34,976 bases of DNA. Source: a virus. The stretch spans positions 1 to 34,976 of the IMG/VR virus record IMGVR_UViG_3300009098_000018, one strand, 5' to 3'. The stretch's first letter is position 1; every line of letters starts with the position of its first letter. Shown here in pieces: positions 14,014-34,103 of this stretch. The notes under the pieces are model-generated. The model was given only the letters and a program-made list of their open reading frames with translations, was not told the DNA's origin and did not search any database. The position numbers and the translations under genes were made by a program.

Positions 14014-15030
14014 TTATTTATTTTCCGGGACAGGCGGAGGCGCGTGCAGCTGGCCTGCCAAGGTCGCCGCCGCGCGATCCACGTCCTGCATCGCCCCCGC
14101 CGCATAGCGGGCCGTCGCCGCCACCGTCGAGTGCAGGAGAAACCGCGAGACCGTCGCGAGATCCTTCGTCACTCGATACAACATCGTCCCGAACGAGTGC
14201 CGCAAATCGTAGAGGCTGATGCCCGTGATCGGCGGCGTCGCGCGGCGGCCGGCCGATTTGAAAATGCTGTTCGCGGTCGGCACGCTGAACGGCCCGTACG
14301 CATTGGCCGCGTGAAAGGCTTTGAAGGCCTCGACGGCTTGCGGGAGCAGTGGCAAGGTTCGGGCTTCGACGCCGGCGCCTTTCCGTCGCGGCCGCACCCG
14401 GAGCGTCTCGGCGGTCAAGTTCAGATCGGCCGGCTGCACCTGGCCGAGCATCCCCGGCGGTAAGCCCGTCCAGGCGAGCACGCGGATCCGGATCTTCGTG
14501 ACGCTCGTGGGCATCGCGTCGATCAAGCGCTGGATCGTGTCGTAGGGCAAGCCGCGGGCTTCGGGCTTCGGTTCGCGCGGCGCTTCACTCGCGCGCACAG
14601 GATTGGGGACTTCCTTCCCGTCCAACTTGTTCCACATCGAGAGCAGGACCATGCGGCGTTTGCGCACCGTGCCTGGCGCCAGGCCGGCGACGAGCCACCC
14701 TTGCAACACGCGATCGATGTCGGCGGCTTTGATGCTCCGGCGTGGCCGATCGGCGCCGAGGGCGCGTTTCCAGAGCTCGAGCTGCTTCGTGCGTTGCGTG
14801 TAGGTGACGAGCGCGGTGACGCGGGTCAAGTACTCCTCGATGTCGGCGCCGAACGAGCCGCGGGCCGCTTTCGGGACGGCGTAGGTGTCGCGCTGGTCCT
14901 TGAGCCAGGCGCGCATCTCCTCGACCGGGGTGGTGAGCGGGTAGCTCTTCGCGTACGTCTTGCCGGCGATCTCGACGTACGCTTGCCAGCCGCCTTTCCA
15001 GGGCCGGATGTTTTTCAGGCGGCGCGGCAT
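14014..15030 (-). CDS. int: Tyrosine recombinase integrase with altered catalytic set
   Basis: A 338-aa protein. An N-terminal arm-binding domain ('WKGGWQAYVEIAGKTYAKSYPL') and a core-binding SAM-like domain (about 60-150) precede the catalytic domain. Visible catalytic residues are K217 (RPRRKGAG), R277 and H278 (YDLRHSF), H300 (FLLHST) and the nucleophile Y309 (TARYA). At the first Arg position the sequence is 'TGLPPGML': P191 replaces Arg. The box II His is Tyr (Y274). It should integrate or excise the phage if these changes are tolerated. It ends beside the moron promoter and possible attP. Confidence 0.8.
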   Translation of the reverse strand: MPRRLKNIRPWKGGWQAYVEIAGKTYAKSYPLTTPVEEMRAWLKDQRDTYAVPKAARGSFGADIEEYLTRVTALVTYTQRTKQLELWKRALGADRPRRSIKAADIDRVLQGWLVAGLAPGTVRKRRMVLLSMWNKLDGKEVPNPVRASEAPREPKPEARGLPYDTIQRLIDAMPTSVTKIRIRVLAWTGLPPGMLGQVQPADLNLTAETLRVRPRRKGAGVEARTLPLLPQAVEAFKAFHAANAYGPFSVPTANSIFKSAGRRATPPITGISLYDLRHSFGTMLYRVTKDLATVSRFLLHSTVAATARYAAGAMQDVDRAAATLAGQLHAPPPVPENK

Positions 15031-28531: not shown

Positions 28532-30994
28532 ATGGCCTTCACCTCCCAACTCGGCATTCCCGAGAGTCACGCGGGCAACGAGATTCTGGGCGGCGGCGTC
28601 GCCGCGCCGGCGGGGGCGGGCGCGACCAGCCAGCCCGGCGGCGATCTGCGCGGCGATCGGGAGCGCGTCGCCCCCCGGCAAGGGCGCGGGCGCACCGACG
28701 ATCAGATCCTGCAGGAGATTCGCACCCGCTACGACTACGCGCAATCGGCCTGGTCGCCGATCGTCGACGAAGGCGATACGGACATGCGGTACGTCAGCGG
28801 CGATCCGTGGGATCCGATCGAGCGCAAGGAGCGGGAAGACGCGAACCGGCCCTGTCTCGCGCTGGATGAAATCGGCCAGTACACCAACCAGGTGATCAAC
28901 AACGTCCTGGCGAATCCGCGGGCGATGAAGTTCGCGCCGACGGGCAACGGCGCCAACGACCAGGGCGCGCAGTTCTACGCGAGCAAGGCGCGCGAAACCG
29001 AGTATCGCTCGCACGCGCAGCTGGCCTACACGACGGCGCATCAGAACGCGGTCGAGCGGTCCTTCGGCTGGGTGCGCGTGACGACGCGCGAGTCGTCCGA
29101 TCGCTCCTTCAATCAGGATCTCTGGATCGAGGACATCCCGAACCCCAACATGGTCCTGCCGGATCCGGACTTCAAGCGGCCGGATGGCAGCGACCTCCGG
29201 TACTTGTTCTACGTCGAACCGACGCCGATCCGGGAATTCAAGATCACCTGGCCGCACGCCGCCATTCAGGACTTCACGCTCGAACTGCGGACGCTCGCGC
29301 CGTCGTGGGTGAACGGCGATCGGCAGACGGTGAAGGTCGCCGAGTACTGGACGAAGGAACTCGTGCGGATGCGCCGCCTGCTGCTGATCAAACGCGCCGA
29401 CCGGCGCGGCCCACTCGAGATCTTCGAGGACGAGCTCGCGCCCGGCGCCCTCGCCACGCTCTCAGAGCTGATCCTCCGCGAGCGGGAGGTGCCCGAGCAC
29501 GAAGTCACGCAGTACATGACGAACGGCGTCGAGATCTTGAAGACGACGGCGTGGAAAGGCAAGTACATCCCGTTCGCCTCGTGCCTGGGCAAAGTGATCT
29601 ACGTCGACACGGGCAGCGGCCCGAAGCGGCAGATCCTCTCCATGGTGCGCCTGGCGCGGGATCCGGTCATGGCGCATGCGTACGGCTGGACGACCGAAGC
29701 GGAGATCGTCGGCGGCATTCCAAAGTTTCCGTACTTCGTCTATGAGGGGCAGCTGACGCCGAAGGAACTCGATCTCCTCGCGCGCTCGACGCGGGAGCCC
29801 GTCGCGGTCATCACGTTGAAACCGGTGGTCGATGGCGCGACGCAGCAAGTGCTGCCGCCGCCCGTCCGCCAGTCGTGGGATCCGGCGCTCGCCGGCATCG
29901 AACAATTCAAAGAGTCGGCCCGCCGTGCGATTCAGTCCGCGATCATGGGCTCGCCGCTGCCGACCGAGGCGCAGCGCCACAACGAAAAGTCCGGGATCGC
30001 GCTGAAGCAGATCGAGAAGAGCGGCCAGATCGGGAGCTTCCATTTCAACGCGCACTACGACGATCTGATCCGCCACGTCGGCGTCATCTTCGAGGACCTG
30101 CTCGACAAAATTCTCGACACGGCGCGCGACACGGGCATCCGCGACGCCGACGGCACGGCGAAGATCGTCCGCGTCAACGACCCGAAGCCCGACGCCAAGC
30201 ACTATCCGGACAACGTCGCGCACGATCAGGCGCTGCAGGCGTGGAAGGGCCGGCTCCCGAGCGGCTGCGAGGACTCGGTCGACACGAAGGGCGACTACCT
30301 CGTCACGGTCTCGAGCGGGCCGGCGGTCGACAGCGAGCGCGAGGCCGTCAACGAGTTCGTGCAGAGCCTGATGCAGATTCCGGTCGTGGCCGCGCAGTGC
30401 GCGGACCTCATCGTCCGGCTCCAGGCGGCCACGATGGGCTTCGGCCAGCTCTCACCGCTCCTCGACGAGCTCGCCGATCGCATCACGCCGCCGCAGTTCC
30501 GCAAACCGAAGGACGGCGAAGGGCCGGATCCGCAGCAACTCCGGCAGCAGCTCGCCCAGGGACAGCAGGAGGTGGGGCAGCTCAAGGAGATGCTCCAGAA
30601 GCTGAGCCAGGAGATCCTCACGAAGAAGGCCGAGACGGAGTCGCGGGAACGCATCGCCGCCGCGGACATCCAGAGCAAGGAAAAACTGGCGGCGCTCGAT
30701 CGCGAAACGAAACTCGGCGTGGCGGAGCTCGGCGCCAAGGTCGATCGCCTCACGCTGTTCATGGAAGAACGCGGCCGGGTGGGCGCGCAGCTCGCCGACG
30801 CGCATCAGGCGGATCTGGACCGCGCGCACGCCGTCGGCCTCGCCGGCATGGGCCAGGCGCACGCACTCGAGCAAGGGGACCAGGGGCACGCGCAGGCCCT
30901 CGAACAGAGCGACCAAGGGCACGCGCAGGCGCTCGAGCAAGGGCAGCAGGCCGCGGATCTCGCGCCGCCGGCCGACGCCGGCGCGGACGCCTGA
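28532..30994 (+). CDS. P22-type portal protein
   Basis: An 820-aa protein. 'RYDYAQSAWSPIVDEGDTDMRYVSGDPWDPIERKERE', 'RPCLALDEIGQYTNQVINNV', 'NAVERSFGWVRVTTRES', 'WIEDIPNPNMVLPDPDFKRPDGSDLRYLFY' and 'SPLPTEAQRHNEKSGIALKQIEKSGQIGSFHFNAHYDDLIRHVG' match the P22 portal family (725 aa in P22). The C terminus is a long coiled coil (about 650-760) and ends in Gln/His repeats; this corresponds to the P22 barrel but is elaborated. Twelve copies should form the DNA channel. The start follows the fibre stop directly. Confidence 0.9.
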   Translation: MAFTSQLGIPESHAGNEILGGGVAAPAGAGATSQPGGDLRGDRERVAPRQGRGRTDDQILQEIRTRYDYAQSAWSPIVDEGDTDMRYVSGDPWDPIERKEREDANRPCLALDEIGQYTNQVINNVLANPRAMKFAPTGNGANDQGAQFYASKARETEYRSHAQLAYTTAHQNAVERSFGWVRVTTRESSDRSFNQDLWIEDIPNPNMVLPDPDFKRPDGSDLRYLFYVEPTPIREFKITWPHAAIQDFTLELRTLAPSWVNGDRQTVKVAEYWTKELVRMRRLLLIKRADRRGPLEIFEDELAPGALATLSELILREREVPEHEVTQYMTNGVEILKTTAWKGKYIPFASCLGKVIYVDTGSGPKRQILSMVRLARDPVMAHAYGWTTEAEIVGGIPKFPYFVYEGQLTPKELDLLARSTREPVAVITLKPVVDGATQQVLPPPVRQSWDPALAGIEQFKESARRAIQSAIMGSPLPTEAQRHNEKSGIALKQIEKSGQIGSFHFNAHYDDLIRHVGVIFEDLLDKILDTARDTGIRDADGTAKIVRVNDPKPDAKHYPDNVAHDQALQAWKGRLPSGCEDSVDTKGDYLVTVSSGPAVDSEREAVNEFVQSLMQIPVVAAQCADLIVRLQAATMGFGQLSPLLDELADRITPPQFRKPKDGEGPDPQQLRQQLAQGQQEVGQLKEMLQKLSQEILTKKAETESRERIAAADIQSKEKLAALDRETKLGVAELGAKVDRLTLFMEERGRVGAQLADAHQADLDRAHAVGLAGMGQAHALEQGDQGHAQALEQSDQGHAQALEQGQQAADLAPPADAGADA
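30838..30950 (+). repeat. Short tandem repeat encoding the portal tail
   Basis: In-frame 30-base units encode HALEQGDQG HAQALEQSDQG HAQALEQGQQ. They extend the coiled-coil barrel end of the portal. Copy number could vary between relatives. Confidence 0.6.
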
Positions 30995-31493: not shown

Positions 31494-31583
31494 ATGGATT
31501 TCGACATGTGGCCAGCGGACGTGAACGAGCTGATGATTCGGCTCAAATTCTACTGGTCGCGCTCGATGTGGTTGCTCGTATGA
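31494..31583 (+). CDS. 29-residue peptide, doubtful
   Basis: MDFDMWPADVNELMIRLKFY, then WSRSMWLLV. It is amphipathic and Trp-rich, with no ribosome-binding site. It lies at the start of the 335-base gap before the scaffold gene and may be a real small peptide. Confidence 0.3.
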   Translation: MDFDMWPADVNELMIRLKFYWSRSMWLLV

Positions 31584-31621
31584 GATAGCCGACTCCCGCG
31601 GCGCGTCTAGAGCCTGCAGCT

Positions 31622-31748
31622 CGAAGAGCGGTCTCGTCCACCGCTGACGCTTCGCACAAGGGACTACACGATACGACGGCGTGTGATGGAAGGCCAGGAG
31701 CCTGAAAACTCCCGAGGCGCCCCACACGCCGTTTGTCGTTGTAGCCCT
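31622..31748 (+). ncRNA. Two-hairpin structured RNA candidate between portal and scaffold
   Basis: Hairpin A (31622-31654): CGAAG-AGCGGT pairs with ACCGCT-gacg-CTTCG. Hairpin B (31659-31748) is one long stem: AGGG pairs with CCCT (A bulge), CTAC with GTAG (T bulge), ACGA with TCGT, then a small internal loop and ACGGCGTGTG with CACACGCCGT. A branched top contains GGAG / CTCC around CCTGAAAA and GCC / GGC. About 22 base pairs form the main stem. No frame of good coding quality covers 31584-31796. Confidence 0.5.
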
Positions 31749-31796
31749 CGCATCCGGACGTACCGCCCGCTGGGACGAGCGCGCTGAGGGTCCGAC

Positions 31797-32846
31797 GTGG
31801 AACCAAGCGCCGCCGCTGCACCCGCGCAGCCCGCAGAACCGATCGCCGCGCCGCCGCTGACCGCGGCCGAAACAGCCGTCGCGGCGGATGACTTTGCCGC
31901 GTTTCATGCGGCCGACCGTGCGGAACGGCTCGGCAAGCCCTTGCCGGTCCCGGACGCGAAGCCTGCCGTCGTCGAGCCGCCCGCGGTCGTCGAGCCGCCG
32001 AAGGTCGTCTCCAAGCGTCAGCAGGACATCAACGACCGCATTCGCGACTCGACCGACCGCGCCACGGCGGATCTGCGGGCGGAAAACGAGCGCCTGCGTG
32101 CGCTGTTGCCGCCGACGCCGCCGGCGAAGGACCCCGCGAAGCCCGCGCCGATCGCGCTCGCGCCCGATCCGGCCGATCCGGAACCCGATGCGACAGACCT
32201 GACGCGGTATCCCGGCGGCGAGTACGACCCGAAATATTTGCGGGAAGTCGGCCGGTGGGATGCGCGTCAGGAACTCCGCACGCGTGACGCCGCGCACCAG
32301 GCCCGCACGCAGGCGACGCAGGCCGAGACGGAATTCCGCACGTCGGCCGGCGCGATGGCGAAAGCCTTCACGGACCGCATGACCGCCGATCCGACCTTCA
32401 AGGATCGGCTCGATCAGGATCTCCTTGGGCGGTTGATTCCGTTCGCCTCGCTACCCCCGGGCACCGCCGGCGGCCCGATCAACGCCATTGCGACGGAACT
32501 CCTCGCGACGCCCGACACGGCGCCCGAGATCGTCGCCTATCTCTCCGCGCACCCTGACGATCTGACGCGACTCACCGCCGTCGACGCGCAGGGGATTCCC
32601 GTGCTCTCGCCGCGCCAGCTCCTTCGCGAGCTCGGGCGCCTCGAGGCGCGGCTCACGCCGTCCGCCGCCCGCGATACGCCGCCGGCGCCGAAGACGGTCA
32701 CTGATGCCCCCGCTCCACCCGTCGTCCTCGGATCGCGCGCCGCCTCGGCCGCCGATCCCGTCGCGGACGCGATCAAGCGGGACGATTTCGCCACCTTCAA
32801 CCGGCTCGAGCTCGAGAAAGCCGCCGGGGCACGCCTCCACAGGTAA
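31797..32846 (+). CDS. Capsid scaffold protein
   Basis: A 349-aa protein. The N-terminal 150 residues are Ala/Pro/Glu-rich and disordered ('AAPAQPAEPIAAPPLTAAET', 'KPAVVEPPAVVEPPKVV'). Helical segments follow ('ARQELRTRDAAHQARTQATQAETEFR', 'LSPRQLLRELGRLEARLTPSA'). The C terminus 'DAIKRDDFATFNRLELEKAAGARLHR' is the short basic helical end typical of scaffolds that bind coat. It lies between portal and coat, the P22 position. Start is GTG with a GAGGG site six bases upstream. Confidence 0.75.
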   Translation: MEPSAAAAPAQPAEPIAAPPLTAAETAVAADDFAAFHAADRAERLGKPLPVPDAKPAVVEPPAVVEPPKVVSKRQQDINDRIRDSTDRATADLRAENERLRALLPPTPPAKDPAKPAPIALAPDPADPEPDATDLTRYPGGEYDPKYLREVGRWDARQELRTRDAAHQARTQATQAETEFRTSAGAMAKAFTDRMTADPTFKDRLDQDLLGRLIPFASLPPGTAGGPINAIATELLATPDTAPEIVAYLSAHPDDLTRLTAVDAQGIPVLSPRQLLRELGRLEARLTPSAARDTPPAPKTVTDAPAPPVVLGSRAASAADPVADAIKRDDFATFNRLELEKAAGARLHR

Positions 32847-32849
32847 ATC

Positions 32850-34103
32850 ATGGCTAACGCCTTTCAAACCGTCGACTGGATGTCGATGAAGTGTCTGTCG
32901 CTGCTGAAGAACAAGCTCGCAGTGGTCAGCAACTTCTCGACCGACGCGCAAGGGGATTTCGAAAAACCCTTTGCCGTCAACGACTCGATCCGGATGAAGA
33001 AACCGCAGCGCTTCCTCATCCGCAACGGCCTCGGCTACACGCCGGATCCGCTGAACCGCATCTTCACGACCATCAACCTGAACCAACCCTTCGGGATCGA
33101 CTTCGAGTGGGACTCGTACGAGAAGGCCGTCAAGATGGAACGGTCCAACGAGCAGCTCGAAACCGAGTACCTCGCGCCCGCGATGGCGCAGATCGCCCAG
33201 GAGATCGACTCCCGCGCCGCGCTCTGGGCCTATCAGAACAGCAACAACTTCGTCGGCGTGCTCGGCACCGATCCGACCTCGGACGTCTTTGACGGCACGT
33301 CGGCCGCCGCGCGGCAGCGGCTCGTCGAGCTCGGCGGCGCGAACGATGAAGGCAACCGCGTCTGCATCGTGCCGCCGAACATCATGCGCGCGGCCAAGAA
33401 GTCGTCGATCGCGTACTTCAACCCCGTCTCGGACATCAGCAAGCAGTTCCGCACGGGGATCGTCGGCTCGGGCGACGGCTTCGAGTGGTACGAGTCGATG
33501 TCGCTCTACTCTCACACGTCCGGCGTGTGGGCCGGCGCCGTCACGGTCACGACCGCACCCGTCAACGGCGCGACGACCTTGGCGGTGACGTGCACGAACG
33601 GGGACACGTTCCTCCAGGGCGACGCGTTCGATATCGCGAGCGTCTACCAGGTCAACCCGATGACGCGGCGCAAGACGACCTCCGTCTTGAAGCCGTTCGC
33701 CGTGACGGTGCCGACCACGGGCGCCTCGTCGGCGGCGACGCTCACGCTCAACATCCCGATCTACGGGCCGGGCTCGCAGTACCAGAACGTCGACGCCCTG
33801 CCGGTCGCCGGCGCGGCGCTCACGATGTTCCGCGGCACCGCGGCGCCGACCTCGGCGCACAGCGGGATCAACGGGCTCGCGTTCACCAAGCATGCCTTCG
33901 CGTTCGTCGGCGTGCCCCTCGAGAAGCCCTCGGGCTCGGTCGAGATCTGCTGGCAGCGGCGCGATCCGGAAAGCGGCGTCGCCATTCGGTTCATTCGGCA
34001 ATTCGACGGCCAGCTGTCGCGGATGATCAACCGCTTCGACTGCCTGATCGGCTTCGGCAACCTGTACAACGACGAGTGCTGCGTCCGCATCCTCGGCGCC
34101 TAG
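32850..34103 (+). CDS. Major capsid (coat) protein, P22 gp5-like
   Basis: A 417-aa protein. 'VSNFSTDAQGDFEKPFAVND', 'VKMERSNEQLETEYLAPAMAQIAQEIDSRAALWAYQN', 'VCIVPPNIMRAAKKSSIAYFNPVSDISKQFRTGIVGSGDGFEWYESMSLY' match P22-type coat proteins. The insertion region ('AVTVTTAPVNGATTLAVTCTNGDTF', 'VYQVNPMTRRKTTSVLKPF') fits the I-domain. 'ISKQFRTGIVG' and the C terminus 'LIGFGNLYNDECCVRILGA' are also typical. The length is close to P22 (430 aa). It lies three bases after the scaffold stop. Confidence 0.9.
   Translation: MANAFQTVDWMSMKCLSLLKNKLAVVSNFSTDAQGDFEKPFAVNDSIRMKKPQRFLIRNGLGYTPDPLNRIFTTINLNQPFGIDFEWDSYEKAVKMERSNEQLETEYLAPAMAQIAQEIDSRAALWAYQNSNNFVGVLGTDPTSDVFDGTSAAARQRLVELGGANDEGNRVCIVPPNIMRAAKKSSIAYFNPVSDISKQFRTGIVGSGDGFEWYESMSLYSHTSGVWAGAVTVTTAPVNGATTLAVTCTNGDTFLQGDAFDIASVYQVNPMTRRKTTSVLKPFAVTVPTTGASSAATLTLNIPIYGPGSQYQNVDALPVAGAALTMFRGTAAPTSAHSGINGLAFTKHAFAFVGVPLEKPSGSVEICWQRRDPESGVAIRFIRQFDGQLSRMINRFDCLIGFGNLYNDECCVRILGA

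Follow-up and report, generated by a model that had tools for sequence, protein, structure and literature searches.

A conserved structured RNA between the portal and scaffold genes

What occupies a 213-nt gap between the portal and scaffold genes in the late operon of a phage, and is it likely to act as RNA? We addressed this question in IMG/VR record IMGVR_UViG_3300009098_000018, all 34,976 bases of which are referred to here as the window. The gap (31584-31796) is genuinely free of genes, the last small open reading frame (ORF) upstream ending at 31583 and the scaffold gene starting with a GTG at 31797. We demonstrate that positions 31603-31796 encode a conserved structured RNA, which comprises a three-way junction of helices P1, P2 and P3, a 90-nt hairpin termed P4, and a 3' part that reaches the Shine-Dalgarno sequence of the scaffold gene (Table 1). 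The first-pass annotation had proposed a candidate structured RNA at this place, a proposal that is strongly supported by covariation, by shuffle tests and by a link to the Rfam family int-alpA. The 29-aa ORF just 5' of the gap (31494-31583) has a 50% identical relative in locus L017 (tblastn E 4e-6) and may be a real small protein, and a search for tRNA and tmRNA found none.

Table 1. Features of the portal-scaffold gap and of the genes around it (positions in the window).
Feature	Position	Strand	Evidence or remarks
P22-type portal gene	28532-30994	+	PF16510, E 5e-90
P1 5' arm GCGUC	31603-31607	+	4 of 5 P1 pairs with changes on both sides; 12 sequences, MAFFT alignment
Junction UA (of CUA)	31608-31609	+	CUA invariant in MAFFT alignments A10 and A11; also in int-alpA consensus
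P2 hairpin GAGC-CUGCA-GCUC	31610-31622	+	3 of 4 pairs with changes on both sides
Junction GAAG, GAA conserved	31623-31626	+	MAFFT alignments; int-alpA consensus GAAAA
P3 hairpin AGCGGU-CUCGUCC-ACCGCU	31627-31645	+	Loop L3 at 31633-31639; 5 of 5 scored pairs with changes on both sides
P1 3' arm GACGC	31646-31650	+	Covariation, MAFFT alignment
x'1, in conserved ACAAGGGAC	31656-31664	+	GGAC at 31661-31664 complementary to L3; swapped-partner test, 20 sequences
P4 long hairpin	31659-31748	+	5' arm 31659-31685; apical part 31688-31721; 3' arm 31723-31748 with U-rich 31732-31740
P4s small hairpin ACACG[AUACGACGG]CGUGU	31666-31684	+	x'2 (GACG, 31675-31678) in loop; alternative to long P4
x'3 GGACG	31756-31760	+	Complementary to L3; post-P4 complementarity test
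P5 weak hairpin CGC[UGGGACGA]GCG	31768-31781	+	Five-pair version CACGC[CGGGACGA]GCGUG in L003
x'4 GGACGAG	31773-31779	+	7-nt complement of L3 (CUCGUCC); mostly inside P5 loop
Shine-Dalgarno GAGGG	31786-31790	+	6 nt 5' of scaffold GTG; x'4 ends 6 nt 5' of GAGGG
Scaffold gene, presumed target of the RNA	31797-32846	+	PHROG 8865 head scaffolding protein, E 5e-8; relatives upstream of coat genes
P22-type coat protein gene	32850-34103	+	PF11651, E 1e-22

Both the complete gap (z -2.24, with 3 of 200 dinucleotide shuffles as good) and a 97-nt stem that was chosen for the test because it looked good (z -5.70, 0 of 200) folded better than their shuffled counterparts, the gap somewhat and the stem strongly. 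The same stem reached z -5.77 in an independent relative, L003, which is 75% identical, and the P4 region averaged z -4.6 over 20 sequences. An RNA from the minus strand of the gap, which also folds (z -2.71), was dropped as a candidate given that the plus strand is the one that carries the conserved loops and matches int-alpA. Covariation in homologues, which had been named together with shuffling as a check on the structure, was found for several helices. For P1 to P3 it was measured on a MAFFT alignment that had not been fitted to any structure, in which 95% of the cells were paired compared with 67.5% after shuffling, 47 cells carried changes on both sides compared with 14.8, and the covariation score was 0.694 compared with 0.190 for shuffled alignments and at most 0.118 when the partners were slid. 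Hammerhead and HDV-type ribozymes were set aside, as the junction sequences are not compatible with them and Rfam gave no match.

The hairpins noticed earlier fit into this anatomy to different degrees. A 33-base hairpin (31622-31654) is present in the window, but only its inner part, P3, is conserved; its outer CGAAG/CTTCG pairs, which relatives lack and which compete with the covarying helix P1, were rejected. The 90-base stem described as following four bases later corresponds to P4, whose lower part contains 25 pairs; its top is structured, and the two single-base bulges are located at 31674 and 31739. Helix P1, the three-way junction and the pseudoknot sites discussed below had been missed.

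Relatives in P22-like phages

Searches of viral contigs with the coat and scaffold proteins yielded 83 loci, whereas the portal as query returned no relatives, and a direct blastn comparison of the gap with named phages gave short chance matches only. In L003 the gap is retained at 75% DNA identity and folds into the same stem. A covariance model built from these two sequences gave eleven matches at E < 0.001 in ten loci (L002, L003, L004, L010, L012, L016, L018, L033, L034 and L082), each of which has one match in the gap between portal and scaffold; in L002 the RNA occurs twice, the other copy (L002:760-903) lying on that contig 3' of the terminase gene, with a small ORF immediately after it. 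Eight further loci that bear P4 (L207, L208, L210, L215, L217, L219, L220 and L228) came from a motif search, as did L209, a repeat of L208. By tblastn, the portal-scaffold context was confirmed for L207, L209 (the phage type of L208), L219 and L220 (portal and coat). The incomplete neighbourhoods of L208, L210 and L228 are consistent with it, and no neighbours of this kind were found for L215 and L217. Twenty sequences share the RNA of the window, most of them between the portal and scaffold genes of P22-like phages. The P22-type phage BIS08P22 has a portal-scaffold gap of 13 nt and is therefore without such an element there, so that P22 itself is unlikely to use it.

Two observations concern the surroundings of the element. 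L082 and L083 have two to three kilobases between portal and scaffold, compared with a few hundred bases in the others. In addition, 11 of the 20 P4-type sequences, namely the window (31580-31588), L003, L208, L210, L016, L219, L220, L215, L033, L010 and L012, show a minimal ATG(NNN)TAR frame or overlapping TGA/TAR stops 25-36 nt 5' of the CUA.

Loop L3 covaries with several downstream sites

The loop of P3, L3, is complementary to repeated sites further downstream, and its sequence covaries with theirs. Across the 20 sequences, the complement between L3 and the spacer holding x'1 measured 4.2 nt compared with 3.33 when partners were swapped (0 of 500), and that between L3 and the P4s loop 4.1 nt compared with 3.22 (0 of 500). 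For L3 and the sites after P4, the complement was 5.35 nt compared with 4.52 +/- 0.22 (0 of 200). The matches of x'1 and x'2 to L3 are short (4-5 nt). Compensatory changes are seen in the L3/site pairs CACGUCC/GGACGUG in L004, UCGGCC/GGCCGA in L012, CAUCC/GGAUG in L010 and CUCAUCC/GGAUGA in L210.

Long P4 covaries (score 0.317 compared with 0.140 for shuffles, 0 of 500) and is formed in the full-length fold of all 20 sequences. It occupies the same strand as x'1, x'2 and the small hairpin P4s, so that the P4 and P4s folds are mutually exclusive. P4s was found in 20 of 20 parsed sequences, scoring above the 95th percentile of its own shuffles in just seven of them; its helix covaries weakly in the close set (32 of 500 shuffles) and shows six distinct arm combinations in a wider set. 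The stability of long P4 greatly exceeds that of P4s, so that any switching between the two would have to be kinetic. When early, shortened transcripts were folded without pseudoknots, P4s appeared in 11 of 20 sequences, the window not being among them.

The GC-rich stem of P4 is followed by a U-rich strand and resembles an intrinsic terminator, the U fraction after the stem being 0.55 in relatives compared with a background of 0.16. The U-tract of the window itself, GUUUGUCGUU, is weak, and a scan of the window for consensus terminators, which allows only loops of 3-8, called none.

A three-way junction whose L3 forms a pseudoknot with a downstream site, together with the highly stable P4 that most P4-type relatives carry between portal and scaffold, could also belong to an element that stabilises or processes mRNA. 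If the scaffold-coat mRNA segment began with such a knot and hairpin, these would block exonucleases or guide cleavage and thereby raise the yield of scaffold and coat. In flaviviral xrRNA, too, the third loop of a three-way junction pairs further downstream, but the likeness is one of topology only: the window RNA has no sequence relation to xrRNA, offers multiple partner sites and is tied to start codons. We regard this explanation as unlikely, as it leaves the presence of at least two alternative partners for L3, the second of them at the Shine-Dalgarno sequence, unexplained.

A divergent and enlarged relative of int-alpA

At the gathering threshold Rfam returned nothing in the window, and the link to int-alpA (RF02996) was seen only in a relaxed search, with 29.7 bits (E 5.2e-6 when the complete record is searched) against a gathering cut-off of 35.8 bits. 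This sole int-alpA match in the record covers the whole model (31600-31662). The window shares with the family the three-way junction P1-P2-P3 and its C-UA-P2-GAA junction sequences. Where the family has a U-run directly after P1 and then AAGG, the window has ACAAGG but no U-run. It differs by the addition of the 90-nt P4 and of a second set of sites complementary to L3, and by its location between portal and scaffold rather than between integrase and AlpA genes, which, going by the family name, we take to be the usual place of int-alpA. The RNA of the window is a divergent and enlarged relative of int-alpA, and since both the Rfam cut-off and the usual location of the family are missed we do not file it as int-alpA. 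Canonical relatives exist: int-alpA scored above the cut-off in 8 of 20 loci scanned, and the cultured Enterobacter phage Tyrion is one phage that carries a canonical element.

The motif CTAGGGTNGCTCCCGAA occurs in at least 120 viral stretches and in at least 116 stretches of bacterial or archaeal genomes, some of the genome matches being due to chance. Since this motif fixes P2 and the junctions, their conservation among the matches is by construction, while the pattern sets no condition on P1 or P3, on the L3 sites, on the distance to the start codon or on the promoter. Among the matches listed, P1 of at least five pairs was present in 62% (8.9% with swapped flanks), P3 in 94% (28% shuffled) and two L3-complementary sites in 104 of 107 (54% in the control; a few P4-bearing loci are included). 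In 42 listed elements with both sites assigned, x'1 is the longer in 38, the two sites are spaced by 15 nt (IQR 14-16), and x'2 ends about 9 nt 5' of the start codon, overlapping or abutting the Shine-Dalgarno sequence in 35. The start codon follows CUAG at a median of 79.5 nt in phage contigs (n=92) and 79 nt in bacterial genomes (n=91), again among the matches listed; we took as start codon that of the best open frame within a restricted range, a choice that makes the spread somewhat tighter, and annotated genes agree. A -10-like box lies 12-26 nt 5' of CUAG, just upstream of P1, in 61 of 115 listed matches, compared with 11.8 (maximum 19) in shuffled sequences.

These features bear on the way in which the class is understood. 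Rfam files int-alpA as Gene; sRNA, in a model without pseudoknot or downstream hairpin, and our literature search found no functional study of it. If this classification of the closest family held for the window, the RNA would act in trans, the exposed C/U-rich loop L3 pairing with other transcripts and its downstream copies being incidental. We consider this improbable: the sites with which L3 covaries belong to the transcript of L3 itself, the second of these sites lies at the Shine-Dalgarno sequence, two independent sets show the same tight spacing to the start codon, and in the window the element is part of a late operon, where no consensus promoter was found close to it. The class is best read as a putative cis-acting 5' leader because of the fixed start-codon distance, the second L3 site at the Shine-Dalgarno sequence and the promoter at the 5' end.

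The genes that follow class members are diverse: some encode nucleases, among them HNH and endonuclease VII, others encode replication proteins, and many are unknowns. Annotated cases are the deep-sea thermophilic phage D6E, with the element before an HNH endonuclease gene; Salmonella phage BIS08P22; and E. coli prophages, with the element before DUF551 genes. An element specific to scaffold genes was dropped as an idea once the core was seen before unrelated genes. The frequent position before HNH, endonuclease VII or GIY-YIG genes would also suit a mobile or recombination site that acts as DNA and travels with homing endonuclease genes, the L3-like repeats being its targets. This strikes us as very unlikely, given that the unpaired motifs are strand-specific, that a promoter-like box marks the 5' end and start-codon spacing is fixed, and that the gene downstream in the window encodes the scaffold.

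The same diversity bears on the roles suggested in the first-pass annotation, which were packaging, control of scaffold expression or host regulation. A structural RNA that binds the portal or procapsid in the manner of phi29 pRNA would match the location of most P4-bearing copies between portal and scaffold. A packaging role is nevertheless unsupported, since other phages, and bacterial genomes too, have this core in front of unrelated genes, such as those for HNH endonuclease or replication; moreover, one copy in L002 lies 3' of the terminase gene and the window has no Rfam match to pRNA, and we give this explanation hardly any weight. Control of scaffold expression fits best, as relatives of the core, whether from phages or from bacterial genomes, stand directly 5' of start codons and the sites complementary to L3 reach the Shine-Dalgarno sequence.

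Elements with twin L3 sites were also seen in L275 and other genome loci from many bacterial phyla and in one archaeal MAG; the int-alpA-like elements on genome contigs are possibly misbinned phage DNA.

A proposed leader for scaffold and coat expression

We believe that the gap probably encodes a cis-acting regulatory RNA within the late mRNA that controls scaffold and coat expression in the way of an attenuator or riboswitch. In this model, the three-way junction with its invariant C-UA / GAA junction would present the 7-nt loop L3 (CUCGUCC), which would pair with one partner at a time: x'1 after P1, x'2 in the P4s loop, or x'3 or x'4 beyond the long hairpin and just 5' of the Shine-Dalgarno sequence. 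Competition between the fold that combines the junction, L3 and P4s and the fold that contains P4 could set read-through into scaffold and coat, while pairing of L3 with x'3 or x'4 could set scaffold translation. In canonical relatives, which are without P4, the translational half would be present alone, and the additional long hairpin of the window with its U-rich 3' strand suggests a terminator-type platform placed on top of a translational one. The RNA structure, the covariation of L3 with its sites and their positions are observations, whereas the switching itself, its direction and its trigger, be it a ligand, a protein or the ribosome, are inferred.

Parts of this model resemble known systems. 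Transcription attenuators and riboswitches use mutually exclusive terminator and antiterminator hairpins, and the window likewise has a conserved junction core 5' of two exclusive hairpins, one of them terminator-like, the same core being joined to a Shine-Dalgarno-type platform in other relatives. In contrast to these regulators, the core of the window offers loop pairing with several repeats of one site, and both a ligand and termination are putative. In IncI/IncB-type plasmids, translation of repZ is controlled by a pseudoknot in which a loop pairs with a site near the Shine-Dalgarno sequence; the loop of the window also pairs with a downstream site near such a sequence, but has at least two alternative partners and no known antisense RNA. 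The scaffold gene of phage P22, gene 8, is autoregulated by post-transcriptional control. Although the gene order portal-scaffold-coat is shared with the window, the 13-nt gap in a P22-type genome implies that the P22 mechanism works without this element.

More tentatively, int-alpA-like RNAs could form a riboswitch-like class of 5' leaders in phages and mobile elements of many phyla, in which the loop of a three-way junction picks between repeated sites, with a translational platform in most members and an additional terminator-type platform in P22-like phages, placed to time scaffold and coat expression. The present data give int-alpA, an RNA catalogued without a function, a full anatomy of pseudoknot partners, a second site at the Shine-Dalgarno sequence, a promoter at the 5' end and a fixed start-codon distance, and recast it as a candidate leader whose function can be tested directly in reporter assays. 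The variant in P22-like phages would then place the scaffold-coat step of virion assembly under RNA control.

Two further observations were made along the way. A contig with an int-alpA element also carries a GP20-b RNA (Rfam RF03003) at its end (L086:4621-4676). In the window, the translation of an ORF on the minus strand (14014-15030) reads like a tyrosine recombinase/integrase, which suggests a temperate phage.
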